Part shown: positions 6,371 to 40,535 of the stretch, piece by piece
Layout of the letters: every line of letters starts with the position of its first letter
How positions within the stretch are numbered: the stretch's first letter is position 1
Source: Armatimonadota bacterium
GTDB taxonomy: Bacteria > Armatimonadota > UBA5829 > DTJY01
Length of the DNA stretch: 64,000 bases
Assembly (NCBI GenBank): GCA_017993055.1
Contig: JAGONM010000016.1
Span: forward strand, 1-64,000
Direction of reading: 5' to 3'
The notes under the pieces: generated by a model
Told to the model about the DNA's origin: nothing
The model's database searches: none
Seen by the model: only the letters and a program-made list of their open reading frames with translations
Program-made: the position numbers and the translations under genes

Positions 6371-8602
6371 ATGGCTAAGACACGAAAGAGCACGTCCAGC
6401 GCGTTTGGCGATCTCGGGAAAGAGACTCTCGCTGATTTCCTGCGCCAGATGTATGAGATACGATTCTTCGAAGAGAAAGTCGCCGAGCTGTTGAAACTCG
6501 GCGTGATAAAGGGGGCCTCACACCTGTATGCGGGTGAGGAAGCGGTCGCGGTCGGCGCGATCTCGACGCTGGAGTTGGACGACGTGATCGCCAGCACACA
6601 CCGAGGCCACGGTCATTGCGGCGCGATCGGAGTGAGGCACGCGAAGGACGAGGCCGAGCGCCAGGACCACTGGAACAAGATGATGGCCGAACTCATGGGC
6701 CGCGCGACCGGATACTGTAAGGGGCGCGGAGGCTCGATGCACATCGCGGACGTCGAAAAAGGCAACCTCGGCTCGACCGGGATCGTCGGCGGAAACATAC
6801 CAATCGGGACAGGGGCTGCTCTGGCCGAGAAGCTCAAGGGCACGAACAACGTCGTCCTCTGCTTCTTCGGCGACGGCGCGAGCAACACGGGAAGCTTCCA
6901 TGAGGCGCTCAACATGGGCGCAACAATGCTCGGCGGCCTCCCCATCGTCTACATATGCGAGAACAACCTCTATGGCATGTCAGTCCCGTTCAACGAGAAG
7001 TCGGTGGACGAGGCCGGGACGGCCTCCAGAATACAAGACGTGGCCGACCGCGCCTGCGCCTATGGGATTCCGGGCGAGATAGTGGACGGCATGGACGTCA
7101 TCGCGGTCCGCGAGGCGGTGGGCAAGGCGGTCGAACGGGCCCGCAAGGGCGGTGGACCGACGCTCATCGAGGCAAAGACATACCGCTGGTTCGGGCACTC
7201 GATCAGCGACCAGCGCATCTATCGAACGAAGGACGAAGAGGCCGAGTGGAAGTGCAAGTGCCCCGTGGACTGTTTCCGCGCGAGGCTCCAAGCGGCCGGC
7301 GTTCTGACAGAGGCTGATCTCGACACCATCAAAGACAAGGCGTTCGATGCAATCGAGAAGGCAACCAAGTTTGCTTCGGACAGCCCCTACCCCGATCCCA
7401 GCGAGCTGTACGACGACGTTTACGTGCCGAAGAACGTTGAGGTCTGGGAAGCTCAGAAGGCGCAGGAGAGGCCGATTGCTGAGAAGATCAACGCCATGGA
7501 GACTGATATCCGGCGATTCCTGCGCGAGCAGTCGGACCAGGTTGCGAAGACCGCGCTCCCGAAGCTGAACAAGGATACCACGACCAAGTTCGAGGCCCAG
7601 TTCGGCATGCCGGTGATCACCTTCGGCCAGGCGATAGTTGACGCCCAGAGAGATGAGATGAAGCGCGACAAGACTGTGTTCATAATGGGCGAAGATGTCG
7701 GACTTTACGGCGGCGCATACGCGGCGACCCGAGGGCTCTACGCCGAGTTCGGTCCCGAGCGAGTGATTGACACCGCGATCTCCGAAGCGGCGGTAGCGGG
7801 GGCGGCGGCGGCGGCGGCGATGCGCGGCATGAGGCCGATCTCAGAGATCATGTACATTGACTTTCTAACCATCGCATCCGACCAGATCGTTCACAACATG
7901 GCATACAATCGATACATGTTCGGCGGCAAGACGAAGGTCCCGACGGTTCTGAGAACGGAAGGCGGCGTCGGACGAAGTATAGCGGCCCACCACTCAGAGA
8001 GTCTTGAAGCATGGCTCGTCCACATCCCCGGTCTGTTCGTCGTGATGCCCTCGACACCATACGACGCGAAGGGGCTCCTGAAGGCCGCGATCCGGGACGA
8101 CAATCCTGTGATCTTCATCGAACACAAGGTCCTCTACAGCGGTGTGATGGGTCCGGTCCCGACCGACGACTACATCATTCCGCTTGGCGTGGCCGACATC
8201 AAGCGCAAGGGCACGGACGCGACGATCGTCGCCTACTCGAGGCAGCTTCACTTCGCAATGGATGCGGCGCTCGAACTGGAGAAGGAGGGCATCAGCGTCG
8301 AGGTCATCGACCCGCGTACGCTCAAACCGCTCGATGTCGAGACGATCGCGAACTCGGTGAAGAAGACAGGGCGCCTGATCACCGTCTCCGAGGGGTTCGT
8401 CCGGTGCGGCATCGGCTCGGAAATCGTCCGCGACGTGAGCGAGTACCGATTCGCAGACGGCACGCTCTGCTTCGATTACCTCGATGCCCCGCCGGTAGTC
8501 CTGGCGGGCAAGGACGTCCCGATCCCGATGAGCGAGCCGCTCGAGGACGCTGTCGTCCCCAAGCGGGATGATATCGTCGCGGCGGTCAAGTCGGTCCTGT
8601 AG
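6371..8602 (+). CDS. 2-oxoacid dehydrogenase E1 component, fused alpha and beta subunits
   Basis: 743 residues joining two polypeptides that are usually separate. Residues 20-350 are E1-alpha, with the thiamine-diphosphate/Mg site GDGASNTGSFHEA (about 165-178) and ENNLYGMS (about 197). Residues 410-743 are E1-beta, with the EDVG motif near 440 and a C-terminal transketolase-like domain from about 615. The enzyme would decarboxylate pyruvate, acetoin or a branched-chain 2-oxoacid and pass the acyl group to lipoyl-E2. The ATG follows GAGGAG with a 7-nt gap. A matching E2 lies far away at 60206, and no E3 is seen in the window. The fusion itself is clear; whether the substrate is pyruvate, acetoin or a branched-chain acid cannot be decided from sequence. 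Confidence 0.92.
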   Translation: MAKTRKSTSSAFGDLGKETLADFLRQMYEIRFFEEKVAELLKLGVIKGASHLYAGEEAVAVGAISTLELDDVIASTHRGHGHCGAIGVRHAKDEAERQDHWNKMMAELMGRATGYCKGRGGSMHIADVEKGNLGSTGIVGGNIPIGTGAALAEKLKGTNNVVLCFFGDGASNTGSFHEALNMGATMLGGLPIVYICENNLYGMSVPFNEKSVDEAGTASRIQDVADRACAYGIPGEIVDGMDVIAVREAVGKAVERARKGGGPTLIEAKTYRWFGHSISDQRIYRTKDEEAEWKCKCPVDCFRARLQAAGVLTEADLDTIKDKAFDAIEKATKFASDSPYPDPSELYDDVYVPKNVEVWEAQKAQERPIAEKINAMETDIRRFLREQSDQVAKTALPKLNKDTTTKFEAQFGMPVITFGQAIVDAQRDEMKRDKTVFIMGEDVGLYGGAYAATRGLYAEFGPERVIDTAISEAAVAGAAAAAAMRGMRPISEIMYIDFLTIASDQIVHNMAYNRYMFGGKTKVPTVLRTEGGVGRSIAAHHSESLEAWLVHIPGLFVVMPSTPYDAKGLLKAAIRDDNPVIFIEHKVLYSGVMGPVPTDDYIIPLGVADIKRKGTDATIVAYSRQLHFAMDAALELEKEGISVEVIDPRTLKPLDVETIANSVKKTGRLITVSEGFVRCGIGSEIVRDVSEYRFADGTLCFDYLDAPPVVLAGKDVPIPMSEPLEDAVVPKRDDIVAAVKSVL

Positions 8603-8633
8603 GCGACGACCACACAGAAAGGCAGCCGAAGTC

Positions 8634-8658
8634 GGGGATGGAGTTGTACTCCATCCCC
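8634..8658 (+). other. Intercistronic hairpin between the E1 and GH4 genes
   Basis: A perfect 10-bp inverted repeat GGGGATGGAG / CTCCATCCCC with a 5-nt TTGTA loop, followed by the weakly T-rich TCTATCTT. It lies 31 bases after the E1 stop and 32 bases before the GH4 start. It could be a weak terminator, attenuator or mRNA-processing structure. Confidence 0.6.
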
Positions 8659-8690
8659 TCTATCTTGAACCAGGCATCCAGGAGGGAAGA

Positions 8691-10016
8691 GTGCAGGAGA
8701 AGTACGTTCTCATCGGCGCCGGAAGCGCTATGTTCACGCGAGGGATGGTTGCGGACCTGATCCAGCGCGGCCAGGAGTGCGATCTGGCGCTGGTCGACAT
8801 CGACCCCGAGGCGCTTGAGGTCGCAGAGGGCCTGACCCGCAAGATGATCGAGGCGCGGAAGTCACCGATCACCCTGAGCGCATTCCTCGACCGTCGGGAT
8901 GTCCTCCCCGGCGCGACGGCGGTGATCTGCACCATCGGCGTCGGCGGACGACGCGCGTGGGAGCAGGATGTCTTCATCCCGCGCAAGTACGGCATCTATC
9001 AGCCCGTCGGTGACAGTGTCATGCCCGGTGGGACGTCCCGGGCGCTTAGGATGATCCCCTCGATGGTCTCCATCGCCGAGGACGTGCTCGATCTCGCCCC
9101 GAACGCGCTCCTCTTCAACTACGGCAACCCGATGGGCCCGGTCTGCAGGGGCGTCCGCAAGGCGACCGGCGCGAACATGGTCGGCCTCTGCCACGGCGTC
9201 TTCCACGTCGCGCATCACCTCTCCCAAGTGCTGGGAGCCGATCCCACGCGGATCAACTACGCCGCCGTCGGGATGAACCACCTCACGTGGTTCACCGATG
9301 TCAGGATCGACGGTCAGGACGCAATGCCCAAGCTGCTTCAGATCGCCGATGAGCGGGTCGGGCAACTCGGCGAGCACGGACCGGACGCGATCGACGTGTT
9401 CACCTGGCAGATGATGAAGCTCTTCGGCGCGTTTCCTGCGGTGCTCGACCGGCACATCACCGAGTTTTTCCCGCAGTTCTTCCGCACCGGCGACTACTAT
9501 GGCAAGAAGCTGGGGGGCGATGCATTCAGCTTCGAGGGCACGATCGCCGCTGGTGACCGGATCTTCGACGAGATGAAGGAGGTCGCCGCGTCGAAAGAAC
9601 CGCTCGGGGAGGAGTTCTTCGAGCGGATCGGCGGCGAGCACGAGCAGGTCATGGAGATCATCGAGAGCATCCGGACCGACGCCGGGCGCACCTACTCGGC
9701 CAACCTGCCGAACACCGGACAGGTCCCGAACTTCCCGAAGGATGCCATTGTAGAGGGTCCATGTGTGGCCGATGGCTCGGGTATGCACCCCATCGCCCAG
9801 CCTCCGCTGCCCTCCGGCATCGTCGGCACGCTGGCGACGCGGCTCGCGTGGGTCGAGACGACGGTCGAGGCAGCGCTCGAAGGCAGCCGGGACAAGTTCA
9901 TCCAGGCGCTCGTCCTTGATGGAGCGGTCGAGTCGATGGAGACCGCCGAGAAACTCGCGGACGAACTCCTCGCGACCCAAGCGGAGTACCTGCCCCAGTT
10001 CAGAGAGACTAGATGA
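8691..10016 (+). CDS. Glycoside hydrolase family 4 (alpha-glucosidase/alpha-galacturonidase type)
   Basis: 441 residues. The GTG at 8691 is preceded by GGAGGG with ideal spacing and begins MQEKYVLIGAGSAMFTRG, the GH4 NAD-binding loop. The frame extends upstream into E1, but without a start signal. The metal site fits the family: Cys167 in GLCHGVFH and His197 in GMNHLTWF (compare Cys174/His203 in Thermotoga AglA). GH4 enzymes use NAD+ and Mn2+ to cleave glycosides by a redox elimination mechanism in the cytoplasm. The CHG form is typical of the unphosphorylated alpha-glucoside or uronide group, but the substrate is not settled. The stop overlaps the next start (ATGATAG, 4 bases), so it is translationally coupled to the methyltransferase. 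Confidence 0.9.
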   Translation: MQEKYVLIGAGSAMFTRGMVADLIQRGQECDLALVDIDPEALEVAEGLTRKMIEARKSPITLSAFLDRRDVLPGATAVICTIGVGGRRAWEQDVFIPRKYGIYQPVGDSVMPGGTSRALRMIPSMVSIAEDVLDLAPNALLFNYGNPMGPVCRGVRKATGANMVGLCHGVFHVAHHLSQVLGADPTRINYAAVGMNHLTWFTDVRIDGQDAMPKLLQIADERVGQLGEHGPDAIDVFTWQMMKLFGAFPAVLDRHITEFFPQFFRTGDYYGKKLGGDAFSFEGTIAAGDRIFDEMKEVAASKEPLGEEFFERIGGEHEQVMEIIESIRTDAGRTYSANLPNTGQVPNFPKDAIVEGPCVADGSGMHPIAQPPLPSGIVGTLATRLAWVETTVEAALEGSRDKFIQALVLDGAVESMETAEKLADELLATQAEYLPQFRETR

Positions 10017-11440
10017 TAGCGAGAGTCCTGTCCGAAAGCCAAATCATCCGCGCACACGAGTCATCGCTCTCGATACTCGAGCGGACCGGCGTGCACATTC
10101 CGCATCAGGAAGTGCTGAGCCGATTCGCCGACGCAGGCGCGCAGGTGGACTGGGCAAAGCAGATCGTGCGCATCCCCGCCGATCTCGTCATGCATTCCCT
10201 GGACCAAGCCGGAAAGCAGTTCACCCTCTACGGCCGTGATCTCTCACGCAGAGCGGAGTTCGGGGTCGGCAAGCGGAACTACAACTCGATCGCGGGGGAA
10301 GCCTACTGGGTCGATGAGCTTCACGGACGGCGCCGGTTCGTCACCATGGACGATGTCGCCACCGCCGCCCGCTTCGCCGACGCGCTCGACCAGATTACCA
10401 TGCCAGGCGCGATGGCCGATCCGCACGAGACGCCGGTCAGCTACCGGTGCGTCGAGGTCATGGCGACGATGATCCGCAATACGACCAAGCCGATCCATTT
10501 CTGGTTTCACGACCGGGCATCGGCGAAGTACCTCATCGAGATGATGATCGCGCTCCGTGGCAGCGAATATGAGGCTGCCAAGTTCCCGGTCTGCTACCCG
10601 TTCCTTGAGCCGATCAGCCCGCTGCGGTTCCCCTACAACGGGATCGATCTGCTCTTCGAGACCGCGCGCCTTAACCTCCCGGTGCCGATCGGACCGATGG
10701 CGCAGATGGGCCTCTCCGCGCCGGCTACTATAGCCGGAACGATCGCCCAGGAGAGCGCCGAGATTCTCGCGGGAGTCTGCATAACCCAGCTGATCCGCCC
10801 GGGCATGCCGGTCTGCTACAGCGGAATCTGCCATGCGTTCGACATGCGCACGACCCAGATGATATTCAGCGGCCCCGAGCAGGCAATCTTCGGGGTGGCG
10901 ATGACTCAGATGGGCAAGCACTACGGCCTGCCGGTCTACATCAACGTCGGGCTGACCGACTCGAAGTGCGCCGATGCCCAAGCCGGCATGGAGGCTGGCA
11001 TCACCCTGGCGCTCGGAGCGGCGACAGGAGCGGATGTCTTCGGCCACATGGGGATCAGCGGCGTCGATCAGGCGTCGTCGCTCGACATGCTGATGCTCCA
11101 GCACGAGGTGATCGCCTTCGTGGAGAGCACGATGCGTCCGATCGATCTGAGCGATGAGGCACTCGGCCTCGACGTGATCGATGAAGCAGGTCCGGGCGGG
11201 ACATTCATCGACCGCGAGCACACCGCCGAGCACTTCCGCCGGGAGTTGTACTTCCCACGCCTGCTCGACCGCGACTACTACCAGGCGTGGCTCGATGCCG
11301 GCGCAACCTCGATGCAGGAGCGCTGCCGTGCCCGCAAGGAGGAGATCCTCCGCACGCACGTCCCGGAGCCGGTCTCGCCATATCTGGATCGAGCGATGAA
11401 CGAGATCGTTGCCGCAGCGAAGCAGGAGTTGGATCGATGA
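10013..11440 (+). CDS. MttB-family corrinoid-dependent methyltransferase (non-pyrrolysine type)
   Basis: 475 residues, the usual length for the trimethylamine methyltransferase (MttB) superfamily, with family features such as the N-terminal ILERTGVHIP segment and the GMEAGITLALGAATGADVF region. The frame has no internal TAG, so it lacks the pyrrolysine of true archaeal MttB and belongs with bacterial members such as MtgB, which act on quaternary amines. It would move a methyl group from substrate to the cobalt of a corrinoid protein. It overlaps GH4 upstream and the UROD-family gene downstream by 4 bases each. No corrinoid protein lies in this operon; one is encoded at 33586-34221. The substrate is unknown, but the GH4 neighbour hints at a carbohydrate-linked or sugar-derived methyl donor. 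Confidence 0.88.
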   Translation: MIARVLSESQIIRAHESSLSILERTGVHIPHQEVLSRFADAGAQVDWAKQIVRIPADLVMHSLDQAGKQFTLYGRDLSRRAEFGVGKRNYNSIAGEAYWVDELHGRRRFVTMDDVATAARFADALDQITMPGAMADPHETPVSYRCVEVMATMIRNTTKPIHFWFHDRASAKYLIEMMIALRGSEYEAAKFPVCYPFLEPISPLRFPYNGIDLLFETARLNLPVPIGPMAQMGLSAPATIAGTIAQESAEILAGVCITQLIRPGMPVCYSGICHAFDMRTTQMIFSGPEQAIFGVAMTQMGKHYGLPVYINVGLTDSKCADAQAGMEAGITLALGAATGADVFGHMGISGVDQASSLDMLMLQHEVIAFVESTMRPIDLSDEALGLDVIDEAGPGGTFIDREHTAEHFRRELYFPRLLDRDYYQAWLDAGATSMQERCRARKEEILRTHVPEPVSPYLDRAMNEIVAAAKQELDR

Positions 11441-12486
11441 GCTACGCCCCACTCACTCGACATGAAACCGCCTCGGTAATCGAGGGGTGCTCGGTCGCGC
11501 CGCGCGTGCCGATGATGGTGCACTTCTGGACCGACCCCGCGAGGTTCGGCGTGCAGGAGCGGCGAGCGAGAGACATCCTGGCGACCTACCCGATGGACGT
11601 CCAGACGATCGGAATCCGCATGCCCGGGATGTACGACGCCCCCGAGGACGATCCCGAGTACCGCTGGATGAACTACAGCGACCCCGACATCGACTGCGGC
11701 GGCGCGATCGACTCGAAGATGGCAATCCCCGACTGGTCGCTGCTCGATGCGATTCTGGAGAACTGGCCGAGTCCCGAATACCCCGGGCTGATCCCGGCGG
11801 GGATCGTGTCGGACGGGCGGTATATGCTCGGCAACTTCTGGTTCTGCTACTTCGAGCGCCACTGGTCAATGCGCGGCATGACGAACGCGCTGATGGACTA
11901 CTACACCGATCCGGAGAGCGTCCACCGGCTCTTCCGCGCGCTGACTGACTTCTACCTGCGCATGATGGAGCGCGCGAGGCACGAGGCCGGCATCGACGGC
12001 ATCTTCACAAGCGACGACCTCGGCACTCAGACCGGACCGTTCTTCTCGCCGGAGATCTTCCGCGAGTTCTTCCTGCCCTACTACGCCGAACTGTTTGCCA
12101 AGGCGCACGAGTTGGACATGCATTTCTGGCTGCACTGCTGCGGAAACGTCGAGAAGTTCATCCCGGACTGGATCGACGCGGGGCTCGATGTTCTGCACCC
12201 GATCCAGAAGCACACAATGGATGACCAGGTGATCGCCGAGCGGTTCGGCCAGAACATCTGCGTCTGGGCCGGGCTCGACGTGCAGCAGGTGATCCCCTGG
12301 GGCACACCAGAGGAAGTCCGTGTGGAGATCCGGTATCTCATCGACACCTACTGGCGCCCGAAGGAAGGCCGACTGATGATCACCGCAGGCAACGGCATAA
12401 CCGCCGACTGCCCGATCGAGAGCCTCGAGGCCTTCTGCGACGAGACGTATCACTATGGCCTGAAGAGATGCGCAGCAGATGGTTGA
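11437..12486 (+). CDS. Uroporphyrinogen decarboxylase-family protein, MtaA/MtbA-like methyltransferase II
   Basis: 349 residues. The start is the ATG overlapping the MttB stop (ATGA); the longer open frame lacks a ribosome site. The fold is the UROD barrel. It carries the zinc motif of methylcobamide:thiol methyltransferases, H-x-C...C: His233 and Cys235 in LHCCGN, and Cys325 in TADCP. Family members with this motif take the methyl group from a methylated corrinoid protein to a thiol or another acceptor, so this is a good candidate for the second methyltransferase of the pathway. True HemE enzymes do not carry this zinc triad. The acceptor (coenzyme M, tetrahydrofolate or another compound) is not evident. 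Confidence 0.82.
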   Translation: MSYAPLTRHETASVIEGCSVAPRVPMMVHFWTDPARFGVQERRARDILATYPMDVQTIGIRMPGMYDAPEDDPEYRWMNYSDPDIDCGGAIDSKMAIPDWSLLDAILENWPSPEYPGLIPAGIVSDGRYMLGNFWFCYFERHWSMRGMTNALMDYYTDPESVHRLFRALTDFYLRMMERARHEAGIDGIFTSDDLGTQTGPFFSPEIFREFFLPYYAELFAKAHELDMHFWLHCCGNVEKFIPDWIDAGLDVLHPIQKHTMDDQVIAERFGQNICVWAGLDVQQVIPWGTPEEVRVEIRYLIDTYWRPKEGRLMITAGNGITADCPIESLEAFCDETYHYGLKRCAADG

Positions 12487-12492
12487 TTACCG

Positions 12493-13638
12493 ATGGCCAG
12501 CCTGACTGAGCGAGTGAAGAGTCTGGCGCGGGAGGTCGGCTTCCACGCGGTCGGGATCACGAGCCCAGACCCTTTCTTGGAATCGGAGCAGGTGCTCCGC
12601 GAACGATACGAGCTCGGCCTGCTCGAAGGATCGGACTACGATCTCGACCTCATCCGTCTTCGTACGCATCCCCTGCAGAGCCTGCCCAACGCGAAATCGA
12701 TCCTCGCAGTGGCACTATCGTATCTGTCCGACGAGTCAGACGAGTCCGACAGGTCCGGCGCACCAAAAGGGCGGATGGCCCGATTCTCCCGCGGTCTCGA
12801 CTACCACAAGGTCCTGCAGGAGCGGCTGGGGGTCCTGGCAGCCAGGATTCAGGCGGAGGTCGGCGGACACCCAGAGGTACGCGCGTACGCCGACACCGGG
12901 CCGATCGCCGACCGATCAGCGGCGATCAGAGCGGGAATCGGGTCGCGCGGGAAGAACACATGTGTCTCTGTCGGCAACTACGGCTCATGGGTCGTTCTAG
13001 GAGAACTTGTCACCGATCTCGAGCTCGAGCCGGACGAGCCCGCACCCGTCGACATATGCGGCGATTGCGAAGAGTGTGTGAGGGCATGTCCGACCCGTGC
13101 TATCAGCGCACCGTACACCGTTGATACGCGGATCTGCCTATCGCAGGTCACGCAGTCGAAGGGCTCCATCCCTCATTGGCTGCGAGAGAAGATGGGGACA
13201 CGAATCTACGGGTGCGATAACTGCCAGAGCGAATGTCCGCTTAACCGGCATGCAGAGCCCGGCAACCTCGAGGCATTCCGTCCCACCGCGGGTCTCGGAA
13301 CCCATCCCGATCTGCTCTCACTGCTCAACATCGGACTGGCGGACTTTGCATGCCTCGTGCACCCAACGACCGCGGGGTGGATACGCCGGACCCGATTCCG
13401 CCGCAACGTCGCGGTAGCCTTGGGTAACATCGGCGATCCGATCGCGGTATCCGAACTTAAGAACGCACTGGCCGACCCTGCGCCGATCGTCCGAGGACAC
13501 GCGGCATGGGCTCTCGGACGGATAGGTACCGAGCGGGCAAGACGCCTGCTCGAATCAGCACTCTGCGCTGAGACTGACGCCTCCACACTGCTGGAGTTCA
13601 GGCGGGCGCTCGACATCCCAGGTGTAGCGGGAACCTGA
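12493..13638 (+). CDS. queG: Epoxyqueuosine reductase QueG-like cobalamin/4Fe-4S enzyme
   Basis: 381 residues. QueG reduces epoxyqueuosine to queuosine in tRNA using cobalamin and two [4Fe-4S] clusters. Visible features are the N-terminal flavin-reductase-like/cobalamin domain, the catalytic-Asp motif ADTGPIADR (QueG proteins have VDTGP-like), two cluster motifs CGDCEECVRACP and CDNCQSECP, and C-terminal HEAT-like repeats (LGNIGDPIAVSELKNAL, WALGRIGTERA). It begins 6 bases after the methyltransferase II stop and is almost certainly cotranscribed with it. This is an unusual setting for a tRNA enzyme and may reflect shared cobalamin use. No other queuosine gene is in the window. Confidence 0.88.
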   Translation: MASLTERVKSLAREVGFHAVGITSPDPFLESEQVLRERYELGLLEGSDYDLDLIRLRTHPLQSLPNAKSILAVALSYLSDESDESDRSGAPKGRMARFSRGLDYHKVLQERLGVLAARIQAEVGGHPEVRAYADTGPIADRSAAIRAGIGSRGKNTCVSVGNYGSWVVLGELVTDLELEPDEPAPVDICGDCEECVRACPTRAISAPYTVDTRICLSQVTQSKGSIPHWLREKMGTRIYGCDNCQSECPLNRHAEPGNLEAFRPTAGLGTHPDLLSLLNIGLADFACLVHPTTAGWIRRTRFRRNVAVALGNIGDPIAVSELKNALADPAPIVRGHAAWALGRIGTERARRLLESALCAETDASTLLEFRRALDIPGVAGT

Positions 13639-33585: not shown

Positions 33586-34221
33586 TCAGTTGATGCTGAG
33601 CAAGGCCTTCGCGGCGTCCACCGCGCTTGCCGCATCGGGAGCATACCCATCAGCCCCGATCTCGTCCGCATAGTTCTGCGTGACGGGAGCCCCGCCGATC
33701 ATTATTCTGCAGTTGCCGCGCGCGCCTGCATCCTTCAGAGCGTTGATCGTCTCCCCCATAGCAGGCATCGTCGTAGTCAGAAGCGCTGACAGGCACACCA
33801 GTCCGGCACCGCTCTTGACCGCCTCAACAAACTGCTCCGGCTTGACGTCCACACCGAGGTCCATGATGTCGAACCCTGCGCCCTCCATCATCATGGCGAC
33901 GAGATTCTTGCCGATGTCGTGCAGGTCGCCCCGAACCGTGCCGATGGCAACAGTCGCAACCGGCTGCACTCCAGTTTCGACCAGCTTGGGCCGCAGGACT
34001 TCCATACCGTTCTTCATCGCTCTCGCCGCGATCAACACTTCCGGAACGTAGAACTCATTGTTCTTGAAGCGCTGCCCAACGACGTTCATGCCCGCCACAA
34101 GGCCCTTGGTCAGAACGTCCTGCGGACTCTCACCCTCGGCCAGCGCCCTCTCTGTCAATTCCTTGACGATCGGCGCCTTTCCACTGATCAGCGCGTTGGT
34201 CAGTTCCTCATAGTCGAACAT
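33586..34221 (-). CDS. Methyltransferase cognate corrinoid protein
   Basis: 211 residues. Residues 1-85 are a helical cap, and 88-211 a Rossmann-like B12-binding domain with DLHDIGKNLV: His101 is the lower cobalt ligand of the DxHxxG motif. The SALLTTTMPAM and GGAPV motifs also fit. It resembles MtmC/MtbC/MttC and carries a methyl group between the substrate methyltransferase and the second methyltransferase. It is 39 bases downstream of RACo in one operon. The partner methyltransferases are probably those at 10013 and 11437, since no other is in the window, though others may exist elsewhere. Confidence 0.92.
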   Translation of the reverse strand: MFDYEELTNALISGKAPIVKELTERALAEGESPQDVLTKGLVAGMNVVGQRFKNNEFYVPEVLIAARAMKNGMEVLRPKLVETGVQPVATVAIGTVRGDLHDIGKNLVAMMMEGAGFDIMDLGVDVKPEQFVEAVKSGAGLVCLSALLTTTMPAMGETINALKDAGARGNCRIMIGGAPVTQNYADEIGADGYAPDAASAVDAAKALLSIN

Positions 34222-34260
34222 CTAGATACCCCCTGTTTATCTTTCATGCAAACCGGAAAC

Positions 34261-36120
34261 TCACGCGTCAGCCGAACAGCCGAACATGAGTTCCTCGGAA
34301 AATCTGTCCTGAAAACCCGGATGAATAGTGAGTTCGATGTACTCCACCGATTCGGCGATCTCATCCGCCTCCGCGAAAATCTCGGTCGAGAGCAGGGCCA
34401 GTTTCGCGCCCTCGCCGGCCGCGTTGCCTATCGAGTGCACCAGACCAAGCGGCACATCGGGAATCAGGCCGAGCGCCACTGCGCTCTCCTTGCGCATGTA
34501 GTTTCCAAAAGCGCCGGCGAGAACTACGCTCCCCAAGTCCTCCGGTCCGACACCTCCGCACTCCATCAATGTGCGGATTCCCGTGGCGATCGCACCCTTT
34601 GCCAACTGGACTTCCCGAACATCGCGCTGCGTAACTACTATAGGCTTGCCGTTCGCCGATTCCTCGGCCCTCACCAGCAGGAAGTCACTACCCCGCTCGC
34701 CTTGAACTACCCTATCCCTCAGATGGTGTCCTTTCGGCAACTCGGTCGAATCTACTATTCGCCCATTCGATTCGACAATTCCTGCCTGGCACATGCAAAC
34801 GACGGCATCGAGAAGACCCGACCCGCATATTCCGATGGGACTCACACACCCGACCGTGCTGAAGCTAATCTCGCCGGACTCCATGCAGACAGTGTCAACT
34901 GCTCCCGGGGCAGCTCTCATGCCGTGCCGGATATGGGCACCCTCTAAGGCGGGACCCGCCGCCGTCGAGCATGCGAGCATACGGCCGCCCAATCCTAGCA
35001 CAATCTCCCCGTTTGTGCCAATATCCACAGCAAGCATCGGCACATCTGATTCCCTCAGGCGGGATGAGAGGATCATCCCCACGGTGTCCGCACCGACGAA
35101 TCCCGCGATGCTTGGCAGTACCCGAACCGTGCCTGACCTGCTGATACGAATACCTGAGTCCCCCGCCACAAGACAGAGACTGCTACTAACGGCAGGTACA
35201 TAGGGCGAAGCCGCGAGATGCCTCGGGTCAATACCAAGGAAGAGATGGCTCATACAGGTGTTGCCCACGATCGCGACATCGTAGACCGACGACCTCTTGA
35301 CCCCGGAAGCGCGAAGCAGCACGTCAAGCAGGCGGTTGATCTCACCGACGACATCCCGTCGCATTCGCGCGAGGCCTTTCGGTTCCTGCATCGTGTAGTT
35401 GATGCGGCTGATGACGTCATCTCCTATCCGCGTCTGAGGGTTCATGCCGGAAGCGACCGAGAGCTGACGTCCACTCGACAGGTCCATCAGGTATCCCGCG
35501 ATTGTCGTAGTGCCGATATCGAATGCCGCTCCGAAGCAATAGTCCGTGGTGTCTCCCTCCTCGATACCGATCAGGTCTCCCAGCGAAAACACCCCTGTGA
35601 CCGAGAACCCTGATCGGCGAACTCGCCTGCCCAGACTGCGGAGTTGTGGAAGAGGCATTTTCACCCGCTCAGGGCCGGATCCGAGTTCGTCGACAATTCG
35701 TGTCAAATCCGATCTCAGATCCGACGTGCTCGGTGCGGGCACTATCGCGTGTCTCTTCGTTATCCGCGGCGCGATGCGAATCTCCCGCTTGGCGCCGGAG
35801 GCGAGTACATGAGCATCGAGCAAGCCACGGGTTTCGTCTACGCGAACAACTGCGTCCTCAGGCAGTAGAGCATCACAGCCGAGGCGGTATCCCGCCGCAA
35901 TCTCTGCTTCAGTCAGCTTGGCATCCTCGTTGGGAGTAGCCGGCGGTGCGCCTTCCTCGAACAGCACCTTGCACTTTCCGCATCGCCCCTTGCCACCGCA
36001 CGGAAACGCCAGGCCGATGTCATGTTCCTCAATCGCCTGGCGTAGTGCAGAGCCTCTGCCGACCGATACGGATTTCCCGCCCGGTTGAAATACGATGCTA
36101 ATGTTTTCAGATGAACTCAA
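34261..36120 (-). CDS. RACo-type reductive activator of corrinoid proteins (2Fe-2S ferredoxin plus ASKHA ATPase)
   Basis: 619 residues. The N-terminal ferredoxin domain has the [2Fe-2S] pattern Cys41, Cys47, Cys50 and Cys82 (FPCGGKGRCGKC...GCDALL). After a linker, residues about 195-619 form an ASKHA-like ATPase (FGAAFDIGTTTIAGYLMDL, LAVDIGTNGEIVLG, and a late ICGSGLLDAVV segment). RACo reduces inactive Co(II) to Co(I) using ATP, which every corrinoid methyl transfer system needs. It is located directly upstream of its probable target, the corrinoid protein. The length and architecture match the Carboxydothermus and RamA-like activators. Confidence 0.9.
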   Translation of the reverse strand: MSSSENISIVFQPGGKSVSVGRGSALRQAIEEHDIGLAFPCGGKGRCGKCKVLFEEGAPPATPNEDAKLTEAEIAAGYRLGCDALLPEDAVVRVDETRGLLDAHVLASGAKREIRIAPRITKRHAIVPAPSTSDLRSDLTRIVDELGSGPERVKMPLPQLRSLGRRVRRSGFSVTGVFSLGDLIGIEEGDTTDYCFGAAFDIGTTTIAGYLMDLSSGRQLSVASGMNPQTRIGDDVISRINYTMQEPKGLARMRRDVVGEINRLLDVLLRASGVKRSSVYDVAIVGNTCMSHLFLGIDPRHLAASPYVPAVSSSLCLVAGDSGIRISRSGTVRVLPSIAGFVGADTVGMILSSRLRESDVPMLAVDIGTNGEIVLGLGGRMLACSTAAGPALEGAHIRHGMRAAPGAVDTVCMESGEISFSTVGCVSPIGICGSGLLDAVVCMCQAGIVESNGRIVDSTELPKGHHLRDRVVQGERGSDFLLVRAEESANGKPIVVTQRDVREVQLAKGAIATGIRTLMECGGVGPEDLGSVVLAGAFGNYMRKESAVALGLIPDVPLGLVHSIGNAAGEGAKLALLSTEIFAEADEIAESVEYIELTIHPGFQDRFSEELMFGCSADA

Positions 36121-36154
36121 GATATGCCCACTCCACTATCAGAAACTCCCCAGT

Positions 36155-36502
36155 TCAGAAATAGACCATGTTCTTGAGCGCAGTCTCGTTGCTAGGGTCC
36201 CGACTCAACACCGCCTCAAACTCGGCCTTTGCCTCGTCCATCATCCCGAGCATGCAATAGGTGAGACCAAGATCGTTGCGTGCGTCCACACTCTCAGGAT
36301 CGAGTTCGACGGCCCTTCGCAGTTCCTCCACAGACTCATCGAACAGGCCTTGGAAGCAGTAGACAAGCCCCAACTGCCTGTGAGCCTCGACGTGAGAGCA
36401 GTCGTGCGACAACACCGTCTGAAGCTCCGCGGTTGCTTCGTCGTACTTGCCCTCGACTTTGTATGCAATACCCTGACGGAGGCGATCCTCGATCTCGCTC
36501 AT
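36155..36502 (-). CDS. Tetratricopeptide repeat protein
   Basis: 115 residues, essentially three TPR units: KVEGKYDEATAELQTVL, YCFQGLFDESVEELRRAVEL and YCMLGMMDEAKAEFEAVLSR. It has no signal peptide. It is the first gene of the RACo-corrinoid operon, 34 bases before RACo. TPRs mediate protein contacts, so it might assist assembly or activation of the methyl transfer proteins; this is inference. Confidence 0.8.
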   Translation of the reverse strand: MSEIEDRLRQGIAYKVEGKYDEATAELQTVLSHDCSHVEAHRQLGLVYCFQGLFDESVEELRRAVELDPESVDARNDLGLTYCMLGMMDEAKAEFEAVLSRDPSNETALKNMVYF

Positions 36503-36628
36503 AGCCCAACTCTTGACGCCTGTGCGTTATGCAATATGAAGTATAGAAGTATGGCAGTTACCTCGGTCCACACCAGGCAGACGAGCCACAGGCTAGAGCG
36601 GATACTTCCCTCCCGGGATTCAAACGCG

Positions 36629-36657
36629 AGTATACCACTGTTGCACGGCGATATCAA
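36629..36657 (-). promoter_or_regulatory. Sigma-70 promoter of the TPR-RACo-corrinoid operon
   Basis: On the minus strand: TTGATA (36657-36652), a 17-bp spacer and TATACT (36634-36629). The -35 hexamer overlaps the fmt stop codon. It gives a leader of about 120 nt before the TPR gene, long enough for regulation, but I found no B12-box-like sequence in it. Confidence 0.72.
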
Positions 36658-37589
36658 TCTCCATCAGGCCCGAAACGCGACCCCACAGACACCGCGTAGC
36701 CCCGAGCGAAATCAGCGGCGCGCATCACCTTCCGGTTCTCGGGCTGAAGCTCTCTTACGAGCACCGCCCCGGCGCCGGCTGACACGGTAATACCATCGCT
36801 CTCCACGCTCAGAACGTCACCGGGGCGACCATCGCCGTCTCGCGCCGAGCAGGACCAGAGTTTGGCGGGAGTACCGGCACAGACAGTCACTGCTCCCGGT
36901 CGAGGTATGCAACCGCGCACGAGATTGACGATCTCAGGTGCCGGTCGCCGCCAGTCCACCACGCAGTCCTGCCTCTTGATTGAAGGCGCGTAGCTTGACT
37001 GTGCATCATCCTGCGGTGTCGGGGTGATAGTGCCATCCTCCAGACCATCGAGGGTCCGCAACAGCAGAGGGGCACCGATCACAGAGAGGCGGTCCTCGAG
37101 ACTGCCCGTATCTTCGTTCGGCTCGATCTCCATCTCCTCCTGCAGGAGTATAGGCCCTGTGTCCAGCCCAGAATCCATGAGCATGGTGGTGACGCCGGTT
37201 CTCGCCTCACCGTTGAACAACGCGTACTGGATTGGTGCAGCACCGCGGTACTTCGGCAGGAGCGAGGCATGGACGTTGACGCTGCCGTACCTCGGCATGT
37301 CGAGCAATGACTTGGGTATGATCTGCCCGAATGCTACCACCACAAATATGTCCGGGGCGATCGCTCGGACCAGATCCAGCACCTCATCAACGCGAACACT
37401 CTCCGGCTGGTAGACCGGCACGCCGTACCTCACCGCGAACTGCTTGATCGCCGACTCCTGTAGCGAGCGCCCCCGGCCTTTCGGACGATCCGGTTGGGTA
37501 ACCACCCCAAGCAATTCGTGCTTGGAATCGAGAAGCGACAAGAACGTGCATACGCCGAAGCTCGCTGTGCCCATGAACAGCACGCGCAT
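36654..37589 (-). CDS. fmt: Methionyl-tRNA formyltransferase
   Basis: 311 residues. It formylates Met-tRNA(fMet) with 10-formyl-THF for translation start. Catalytic features: NVHASLLPKYRGAAPIQ (Asn-His) and GLDTGPILL (Asp). The N-terminal MGTASFGVCTFL differs from the common MGTPEFAVP but keeps the fold. The C-terminal OB-like domain runs from about residue 205. It is the last gene of the gmk operon, 3 bases after def. Confidence 0.95.
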   Translation of the reverse strand: MRVLFMGTASFGVCTFLSLLDSKHELLGVVTQPDRPKGRGRSLQESAIKQFAVRYGVPVYQPESVRVDEVLDLVRAIAPDIFVVVAFGQIIPKSLLDMPRYGSVNVHASLLPKYRGAAPIQYALFNGEARTGVTTMLMDSGLDTGPILLQEEMEIEPNEDTGSLEDRLSVIGAPLLLRTLDGLEDGTITPTPQDDAQSSYAPSIKRQDCVVDWRRPAPEIVNLVRGCIPRPGAVTVCAGTPAKLWSCSARDGDGRPGDVLSVESDGITVSAGAGAVLVRELQPENRKVMRAADFARGYAVSVGSRFGPDGD

Positions 37590-37592
37590 GCG

Positions 37593-38072
37593 CTATTCCT
37601 CCGCCTCGTCGTCAGTAATATACTCAAGAGTGCGAGGATCGGCTCGGTCTATAAACAGCTTGCCCTCAAGATGGTCAATCTCATGCTGGAGGATGCGCGC
37701 CAGAAGGCCCTCCGCCTTGATCTTCACCGCCCTACCGTCGGCGTCAATGCCCTTCACAACGATCCTCTCGGCCCGGCACACCTCGCCCTGGAGGCCTGGA
37801 ACGCTCAGACATCCTTCGAATCCCCTCTGCTCGCCCTCCGCCGTTACAATCTTCGGGTTGATCAGCACCCCCAAGCCGCTGCCGTCATCATATACAAGGA
37901 TCTTTTGTAGGACGCCGACCTGATTCGCCGCCAGCCCCAGGCCACGCTGATCACGCATCGTGCTTACCATATCTTCGATGAGGGACTTGAGCGCAGCATC
38001 GACCTTCGCGATGGACTTGGCCTGCTGCTTCAACCTGGGGTCAGGGTAAGTCACAACTTCACGGCTTGCCAT
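37593..38072 (-). CDS. def: Peptide deformylase
   Basis: 159 residues. It removes the N-formyl group from new proteins. All three metal-site motifs are intact: GLGLAANQVG, EGCLSVPG (Cys ligand) and HEIDHLEG (two His ligands and catalytic Glu). It is coupled to fmt 3 bases downstream, as in many bacteria. Confidence 0.97.
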   Translation of the reverse strand: MASREVVTYPDPRLKQQAKSIAKVDAALKSLIEDMVSTMRDQRGLGLAANQVGVLQKILVYDDGSGLGVLINPKIVTAEGEQRGFEGCLSVPGLQGEVCRAERIVVKGIDADGRAVKIKAEGLLARILQHEIDHLEGKLFIDRADPRTLEYITDDEAEE

Positions 38073-38111: not shown

Positions 38112-40535
38112 TTATAGCATCGCAACGGGGTCAACGTCGATAGATAGACCGGGCCCGCTCACTTCGCGACCATGAATCATATCTCGAAGACAGGCTCTAG
38201 GATCTGCTCCCTGGTCGCCGCGAACGATCAGATGCCAACGATAGAGGCCCCGCAGCCGGGACAGCGGCGCAGGTGCCGGACCGACGACCTCGAGTCCCGT
38301 GAGAGCCTTGCTGCGCAGGATGTCCGCCACGCGCTGAAGTCGCTCCCTTGCAGTATCGTCAATCGGATCGCTGGAAACAATGTTGACCAACCTCGAAAAC
38401 GGAGGATATCCGAGTTCCCGGCGATACGCAATCTCCTGACCGTAGAAGCCGAGGTAGTCCTGACGCACAGCCGACCTTATCGCGTAATGCTCGGGCGAGA
38501 ACGACTGCACCACGACCTCTCCAGGTCTGTCCCCCCTGCCGGCTCGTCCGCTGACCTGAGTCAAGAGCTGAAACGTCCGTTCAGCAGAGCGAAAATCCGG
38601 CACATGCAGCATGGTGTCCGCGCTTACGACACCGACGAGAGTGACATTGGGGAAATCAAGTCCCTTGGCGATCATCTGTGTACCGACGAGCACGTTCGCC
38701 CTGCCCTCGCGGAACGCGCCAAGCATCTGCTGATAGGCATTCTTTCGCCCGGTCGTGTCACTGTCCATGCGGATAACCCGGGCATCAGCAAAAGCATTGC
38801 GGACCTCTTCCTCGACCTTCTCGGTACCGAGTCCAAACTGCCGGATATGAACGCCTCCGCAATGTGGACAGGCGATGGGGGCCGAAATAGACTCCCCGCA
38901 GTGATGACACCTCAGCCTCTTGGCCGCAGCATGATAGGTCAGAGAGACGTCGCAATGCGGGCAACTCGGCGTGTGCCCGCAGGACCTGCAGAGAACGAAC
39001 GACGCGTATCCTCGCCTGTTTACGAACAGGATCACCTGCTCGCCCCGGCTGAGCCTCTCCGTAATCCGCTCCACCAGCAGGTCGCTAAACACAGCGCGTC
39101 GCCCAGCGTCAAACTCCTCTCGCTGATCCACGAGGGCGACCTCCGGCATCGGCCTGTCGTCAATCCGCGTCTTCAGGACGGCAAGCTGGACATCCCCCAA
39201 TGAAGCACGGTAGAAGCTCTCAACCGCAGGCGTAGCACTTCCCAGTATCACGGACGCATCCGACTCACGAGCCCGTTCCTCGGCGGCGGCCCGAGCGCTA
39301 TACCGGGGCGAATGATCCTGCTTATACGAAGGTTCGTGCTCTTCGTCAACCACAACGAGGCCGAGATCGGCGACCGGAGCGAAGACGGCCGACCGGGCGC
39401 CCAGTACGATTCTCGCCTCACCGCTCTCGATTCGCCGCCACTCGTCGTGTCGCTCCCCGGCCGACAGCCTGCTGTGCAGAACAGCTACCTGATCGCCGAA
39501 GCGCGACTTGTAGTGCTCGAGAAGATGCGTGGTCAGGGAGATTTCCGGTACGAGGTTGATACAGCCTCGCCCCTGCTCGACTGCGGTCGCGATGCTCTGA
39601 AGGTAGACCTCAGTCTTGCCGCTGCCCGTAACCCCGTATAGGAGAGTGGTTTGGGGCAACTCCGCCACAAGGCCCTGCCGGATCATGTTGATAGCGTCGG
39701 CCTGTTCTCTGGTCGGAGTCTTCGGTTCGGATGGGGCAACACCTTCGACCTTGAAGGGGTCGCGCCTCACAACGAGTCTCGACTTGTTCACCAACCCCTT
39801 CCGCAGAAGCGCTCTGGCAGAGCCCGATGAGCTGGAGGTCTTGCGCAGTACGTCCGACTGGAGGACCGCGTCCCCCGACTCCCGAAGCTCTCTAAGGATC
39901 GCGGCCTGTTTGGGCGCGCGGGACTCGAGGGTTTCGAGCGGTATTTCCTCCAGGTCATGCGTGATAGTCAACGCCTGCGCGGTCAGCGGTCGCGACCTCG
40001 GGAGTTCCAACACCCTCAGAACCTCGACGGCACCTCGCTCCCTTAACTGCCGGAGGACAGCCCCGAAGCCTCGCAGTCGGGCCTTCGCTTTTAAGACGTC
40101 CTGGTCGGACTCGCCTCCGAGCGAAATCAATGCCTCCACAAGCCTTTTCTGATTCGGCGACGCGCTGGAGACTTTCTCCTGGCTGATAAGCCTGACAAGC
40201 GTGGAGACCGACGCGTTCATAATCTCCGGCACGATCGCCCGGATGGAGTGTTCGAGGGAGGCGACATACTCATCGGAGATCCACCGAGCGAGGTTGACGA
40301 GCGGTCGGCTGAGCCGGATGGAATCGGGGATGACGGCGAGGATGTCCCTCAGACCCGAGAGCTCGGGTACTTGGTCACTTAGAGCTATGACGTAGCCTGT
40401 CAACTCACGGCCGGCGAAGGAGACGGCGACGCATACCCCTTCACCGACCGATTTCGCGAGTTCATCCGGGACGCGATACGTGAAGGGCTGCCTGAGCCGG
40501 GGCGCATCCGCGTCCACGACTACGTCAGCATACAA
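38112..40535 (-). CDS. priA: Primosomal helicase PriA
   Basis: 807 residues. PriA restarts stalled replication forks. Walker A is YGVTGSGKTEVYLQ and Walker B VVDEEHEPSYKQ (DEEH box). Zinc-binding cysteine pairs: CRSCGHTPSCPHC and CHHCGE...CPHCGG. The N-terminal DNA-binding domain begins YADVVVDADAPRLRQPFTY. The predicted start is TTG at 40535, directly after the metK stop; the metK 3' end (GAGGCGGGG) can serve as its ribosome site. Confidence 0.95.
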   Translation of the reverse strand: MYADVVVDADAPRLRQPFTYRVPDELAKSVGEGVCVAVSFAGRELTGYVIALSDQVPELSGLRDILAVIPDSIRLSRPLVNLARWISDEYVASLEHSIRAIVPEIMNASVSTLVRLISQEKVSSASPNQKRLVEALISLGGESDQDVLKAKARLRGFGAVLRQLRERGAVEVLRVLELPRSRPLTAQALTITHDLEEIPLETLESRAPKQAAILRELRESGDAVLQSDVLRKTSSSSGSARALLRKGLVNKSRLVVRRDPFKVEGVAPSEPKTPTREQADAINMIRQGLVAELPQTTLLYGVTGSGKTEVYLQSIATAVEQGRGCINLVPEISLTTHLLEHYKSRFGDQVAVLHSRLSAGERHDEWRRIESGEARIVLGARSAVFAPVADLGLVVVDEEHEPSYKQDHSPRYSARAAAEERARESDASVILGSATPAVESFYRASLGDVQLAVLKTRIDDRPMPEVALVDQREEFDAGRRAVFSDLLVERITERLSRGEQVILFVNRRGYASFVLCRSCGHTPSCPHCDVSLTYHAAAKRLRCHHCGESISAPIACPHCGGVHIRQFGLGTEKVEEEVRNAFADARVIRMDSDTTGRKNAYQQMLGAFREGRANVLVGTQMIAKGLDFPNVTLVGVVSADTMLHVPDFRSAERTFQLLTQVSGRAGRGDRPGEVVVQSFSPEHYAIRSAVRQDYLGFYGQEIAYRRELGYPPFSRLVNIVSSDPIDDTARERLQRVADILRSKALTGLEVVGPAPAPLSRLRGLYRWHLIVRGDQGADPRACLRDMIHGREVSGPGLSIDVDPVAML

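Follow-up and report, generated by a model that had tools for sequence, protein, structure and literature searches.

The corrinoid protein and the reductive activator of corrinoid proteins (RACo) encoded together in the window, by which we mean the whole analysed stretch of 64,000 nucleotides from an Armatimonadota bacterium, are likely to be components of a split cobalamin-dependent methionine synthase, namely its carrier and its reductive reactivase. The best reading of the sequence data is that of a shared carrier, whose core job would be methionine synthesis and which would have an MttB-family methyltransferase as an optional second client. The whole bacterial class probably makes methionine by such a split enzyme, in which ATP-driven repair by RACo replaces the built-in activation domain of MetH. 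Our case is built on gene content, co-occurrence, gene order and promoter conservation, from which we infer every reaction, the contacts between the proteins and the role of the TPR protein described below. The window genome is designated G000 and its contigs carry C-numbers (C3, C4, C21, C31); G-numbers denote genomes of the class.

The corrinoid carrier, RACo and TPR genes

The block lies at 33586-36657 on the minus strand, where a promoter is followed in turn by the genes for a TPR protein, RACo and the corrinoid protein. The last of these (33586-34221, minus strand) is a stand-alone carrier of 211 aa and of the MtgC/MetH-module type, in which a domain search identified a B12-binding_2 cap (PF02607, E 1.8e-22) and a B12-binding domain (PF02310, E 5.5e-25). 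His101, counted with the start methionine, lies within the motif DLHDIGKN, which is invariant (DLHDIGKN/DLHDIGK) across 14 aligned sequences, and the original prediction that the sole corrinoid protein of the window carries this histidine in a DxHxxG motif is thereby borne out. The protein can be aligned to the cap and B12 modules of MetH, including those of the Escherichia coli enzyme, and it matches NCBIfam MtgC (209 bits where 370 are required, and 185 where 310 are) and the NCBIfam metH model, each time below the cut-off. In a search of the whole genome it was the single carrier of the PF02607 family, and another such carrier elsewhere in G000 was rejected as a candidate. An alignment of the carrier, searched against genome contigs, retrieved relatives of at most 65% identity, among them Ca. 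Zipacnadia and Chthonomonadales; the Ca. Zipacnadia carriers have RACo and fmt/def/priA nearby. The RACo protein, used as a query against the genome contigs collection, gave no matches.

RACo (34261-36120, minus strand; 619 aa; Fer2, RACo_linker, Raco_middle and RACo_C_ter) is a predicted ATP-dependent reductive activator of corrinoid proteins of the DUF4445/RamA-like type, consisting of a [2Fe-2S] ferredoxin domain, a linker, a middle domain and a C-terminal ASKHA ATPase domain. The corrinoid/iron-sulfur protein that RACo of Carboxydothermus hydrogenoformans activates belongs to the acetyl-CoA pathway, whereas the predicted target of the window protein is a MetH-type carrier. The two proteins are alike in all four domains (solved structures 3zyy and 4c1n) and align over their whole length (E 3.5e-114 for 3zyy). 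The four cysteines of the ferredoxin domain (C-x5-C-x2-C...C) are retained in the alignment to 3zyy, in agreement with the four-cysteine [2Fe-2S] domain that had been proposed, and a genome-wide search found only this one RACo in G000.

It is extremely improbable that carrier and RACo instead serve a Wood-Ljungdahl-type methyl transfer, with RACo acting as AcsV. Among NCBIfam models RACo matches AcsV best, and among solved structures it is closest to C. hydrogenoformans RACo, yet the AcsV score of 407 bits is far under the cut-off of 800, and such a role was rejected. A distinct, second RACo that is AcsV-like, with about 329-348 bits against the model of the C-terminal domain, also speaks against it, as this copy occurs in seven class genomes (G006, G007, G013, G023, G024, G026, G027) and is missing from G000. 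In at least G006, G007 and G013 the second copy lies near a pterin methyltransferase, and part of the class may possess an acetyl-CoA pathway.

The promoter of the block is of the sigma-70 type (TTGATA-17-TATACT, with TG before the -10 element) and lies at 36657-36629 on the minus strand, at the end of fmt and the start of the gap between fmt and the TPR gene. Taken alone, this motif is not significant, with 3 occurrences found against 1.6 +/- 1.4 expected. The same position upstream of the TPR or RACo gene is, however, occupied by TTGATT-17-TATACT in eight relatives (G005, G006, G007, G009, G010, G012, G014, G026) and by the same core with a spacing of 18 in a ninth (G008), so that the core across relatives reads TTGAT[T/A]-N17-TATACT. 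Because this core is kept while the sequence flanking it cannot be aligned among relatives, the earlier claim that the block has its own promoter holds. Read-through from upstream is also possible, since the block is placed head-to-tail behind priA (38112-40535), def (37593-38072) and the methionyl-tRNA formyltransferase gene fmt (36654-37589), all on the minus strand, in a gene order (priA-def-fmt-TPR-RACo-corrinoid-EamA) that relatives share. The immediate upstream neighbour, fmt, is not part of the carrier system; downstream of the corrinoid gene, EamA and membrane-protein genes follow on the same strand. RACo and corrinoid genes lie side by side in 13/28 class genomes and within about 1.3 kb of each other in 3 more, a proximity that spans four families, with MttB present or absent. 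A SAM or cobalamin riboswitch was rejected as a regulator, as the window gave no Rfam match and only tRNAs were found in 11 related loci.

The first gene after the promoter encodes the TPR protein (36155-36502, minus strand; 115 aa), which had been correctly placed in one operon with RACo and the corrinoid gene. Its orthologues in 14 further genomes are 54-64% identical and have an invariant C-terminal Tyr-Phe. The TPR protein remains with RACo where the carrier has been relocated (G012, G015, G017, G025) and with the carrier where RACo has been relocated (G001), and in more distant families it is better conserved than RACo, which is about 40% identical there. It is perhaps a scaffold for the separate subunits, and a role as an adaptor is possible.

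Separate pieces of a probable methionine synthase

No full-length MetH was found in G000, where the metH model matches separate pieces only, namely homocysteine methyltransferases on C3 and C21, a pterin methyltransferase on C31 and the corrinoid protein of the window; MetE (PF01717) and the MetH activation domain (PF02965) are likewise absent from this genome. The pterin methyltransferase gene lies 58 bp behind metF, and its product scores above the cut-off of NCBIfam PRK07535, the methyl-THF:corrinoid methyltransferase, and a further metF homologue comes after the homocysteine methyltransferase gene on C3. The homocysteine, pterin and corrinoid modules each have a gene of their own in this genome, which also encodes both a Fer2-DUF4445 (RamA-like) and a DUF1638 reactivation protein. 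Since the pieces lie on different contigs, it is their co-occurrence that points to cooperation; a counterpoint to a split synthase is that betaine or S-methylmethionine could be direct methyl donors for the homocysteine methyltransferases.

The split methionine synthase is already known from Phaeobacter inhibens, and G000 is a clean new example. In fitness assays of P. inhibens, Price and colleagues identified three separate MetH pieces, along with Fer2-DUF4445 (RamA-like) and DUF1638 proteins for B12 reactivation (PGA1_c13370, c16040, MtbC c13350, DUF4445 c15200 and DUF1638 c13340), and mutants in all of these were rescued by methionine (PMC5764234). All five components are present in G000, although the two organisms belong to different, distant bacterial classes, and they share the separate homocysteine, pterin and corrinoid proteins, the absence of PF02965, the Fer2-DUF4445 reactivase and DUF1638. 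Unlike in P. inhibens, RACo of G000 adjoins the carrier, in a block that follows priA-def-fmt and has its own conserved promoter and a TPR gene; metF precedes the pterin piece, and DUF1638 is found elsewhere, behind a gene for an aldo/keto reductase with 4Fe-4S domain. MetH of E. coli, in contrast, is a fusion of these modules with its own activation domain, in place of which G000 has RACo.

In the mechanism that we propose, MetF would provide methyl-THF, as its family suggests, and the stand-alone pterin-binding methyltransferase of C31 would methylate the cob(I)alamin bound to the corrinoid protein, from which the homocysteine methyltransferase of C3, C21 or both would transfer the methyl group to homocysteine, yielding methionine. 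Cob(I)alamin accidentally oxidised to the cob(II) state would be reduced by RACo with ATP and the [2Fe-2S] cluster, RACo thus standing in for the activation domain of ordinary MetH, and DUF1638 (on C3) would probably aid RACo in this rescue of oxidised cobalamin; for both proteins the assignment draws on genetics elsewhere. When its substrate is present, MttB would probably methylate the same carrier, because this is the only carrier of its kind in G000, and the pterin methyltransferase would then run in reverse to THF. Such a reverse methyl flow through the pterin methyltransferase has been proposed from genetics for MtgBCD of Ruegeria pomeroyi (PMC12478193).

In the window genome (L109:4867-6830, corresponding to G000:C3:90866-92829), the DUF1638 gene overlaps the end of an aldo/keto reductase gene by 4 bases; this reductase has a double 4Fe-4S domain and is a candidate electron donor. 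In G006, G007 and G015, DUF1638 likewise shares 4 bases with a gene on its own strand that encodes 317-363 aa, and in seven class genomes (L102 of G009 and L103-L108) DUF1638 is found in open frames of 935-996 aa. The frame of G009 (L102:135-2942), the only one of these that was scanned, is fused to an ASKHA ATPase domain of the hydantoinase/oxoprolinase type, a fusion that may bear on the function of DUF1638 in B12 reactivation. We regard as rather unlikely the combined proposal that the TPR protein is a dedicated adaptor, linking the carrier with its homocysteine, folate and RACo partners in lieu of fusion, and that DUF1638 forms, next to RACo, a further ATP-driven machine for corrinoid reactivation.

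Distribution in the class, the phylum and beyond

Across 28 genomes of the class, representing 17 genera and 5 families, RACo is universal (28/28), as is a stand-alone corrinoid piece among the matches to the metH model (28/28); DUF1638 occurs in 26/28, and a MetE-type PF01717 protein in none (0/28). The partners co-occurring with carrier and RACo are the other MetH pieces and DUF1638, with MetE absent. PF01717 is also the domain common to the core synthases of the Mes families (PMC7857596), so that its absence argues against these as well. Full-length MetH is present in two class genomes (G001, G003) and fragments of it in two others (G002, G004), all four of them members of family f2, and only separate metH pieces are found in the 24/24 genomes outside that family.

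In a sample of 201 genomes of the phylum, RACo tends to take the place of the MetH activation domain, as it is present in 74/86 genomes without that domain versus 44/115 with it (Fisher p 3e-12, in a test that ignores the relatedness of the genomes and with six weak partial matches to the domain scored as absent). This exchange between RACo and the activation domain, together with the conserved TPR gene, opens a way to test what keeps split synthases together and how they are repaired. Among 80 related corrinoid loci, most of them in other phyla, a pterin or homocysteine piece lies near 28, RACo near 33, URO-D near 27 and MttB near 6.

MttB as a possible second client

The MttB-family methyltransferase (10013-11440, plus strand), which has no in-frame pyrrolysine codon, is encoded 22 kb from the block and is a possible second client of the carrier. 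Its best solved match is glycine betaine methyltransferase (9yce, 2qne), and comparison with the structure database marks it as MtgB-like. As had been claimed, its operon is devoid of a corrinoid gene: there is none beside MttB at 10013, none in the 15 MttB neighbourhoods of the class (0/15), and none at the locus of a second MttB of G000 (L001; G000:C4:75321-76706), which is about 30% identical to the first and lies near a sugar-phosphate isomerase/epimerase-like gene. The genome-wide search suggested along with the original prediction yielded this second MttB and no other PF02607 carrier, and neither another corrinoid gene coupled to an MttB nor an MttB cotranscribed with the carrier was encountered. 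With a single PF02607 carrier, a single RACo and no corrinoid gene near any MttB, it follows that MttB, if active, most likely draws on the window carrier.

The original prediction combined the two operons into one complete cycle, of which one part stands, namely that no other carrier is visible for MttB. That carrier and RACo work for the MttB operon alone, forming one catabolic demethylation system over two operons in which the URO-D-family protein encoded next to MttB (11437-12486, plus strand) is the acceptor, is very unlikely. Besides the sole carrier, the sole RACo and the MtgB-like character of MttB, the 4-base overlap between the start of the URO-D gene and the end of mttB and the URO-D genes near the related corrinoid loci would fit such a system. 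That the two belong to MttB is nevertheless not supported, as 17/28 class genomes keep carrier and RACo without MttB, and an MttB-dedicated carrier was rejected. A dedicated system would moreover leave methionine synthesis unexplained, since MetE is absent and 24/28 genomes lack a full MetH. The acceptor role fares no better: none of the four close orthologues of MttB (65-79% identical) has a URO-D neighbour, GH4 adjoins three of them, and URO-D matches solved MtaA only at E 0.0096. The case for URO-D as the acceptor methyltransferase is therefore weak, and the conserved methyl-THF:corrinoid methyltransferase on C31 is the likelier acceptor. More generally, caution is advised that a distant corrinoid gene should not be assigned to the sole MttB in sight.

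A shared carrier has a counterpart in R. pomeroyi, in which, according to Mausz and colleagues, MtgC and MtgD serve both methionine synthesis and glycine betaine demethylation by an MttB-family enzyme, the mtgC and mtgD mutants being methionine auxotrophs that also fail on glycine betaine (PMC12478193). Like the MtgBCD/MtgE system, G000 combines one corrinoid carrier with an MttB-family demethylase, pterin and homocysteine methyltransferases and RamA, and it holds a pyrrolysine-free MttB, a corrinoid carrier and a methyl-THF methyltransferase in one genome, the gene content of an MtgBC system. In contrast to R. pomeroyi, MttB is optional in the class of the window. The double service of MtgC and MtgD joins both readings, in that a shared carrier can have methionine synthesis as its core function.

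How much weight MttB deserves is a question of degree, and we would give slightly less than an even chance to equal dual use, with the carrier as a hub for methionine as well as a major demethylation flux by both MttB proteins and with a bidirectional folate methyltransferase. This possibility is compatible with a split synthase and differs in the weight given to MttB; the R. pomeroyi genetics agree with it, as do the two MttB proteins per single carrier in G000 and the finding that every MttB-bearing class genome also has carrier and RACo. Family f2 points in the same direction, as full-length MetH with its own activation domain coexists there with the stand-alone corrinoid protein and RACo, so that the persisting pair must do something else in f2, a point that counts against the split-synthase reading. 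This pattern is as expected if carrier and RACo also serve other methyltransferases; MttB is present in 3/4 f2 genomes, and in the remaining one, G003, carrier and RACo are separated by a URO-D-like gene. Against equal use, however, MttB is patchy (11/28) where the carrier is universal, and the recurrent neighbours of the window MttB, GH4 and an E1-type dehydrogenase, are not betaine genes. Methionine synthesis as the core job of a shared carrier is the reading that we retain.

The MttB operon (6371-13638) encodes an E1-type dehydrogenase with fused alpha/beta parts (743 aa), a GH4 glycosidase, MttB, URO-D and QueG. The pairing of GH4 with MttB recurs in relatives, and an E1-sized gene is also present in G008 and G012. 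These neighbours suggest that the substrate of MttB may be glycoside- or sugar-linked rather than plain betaine.
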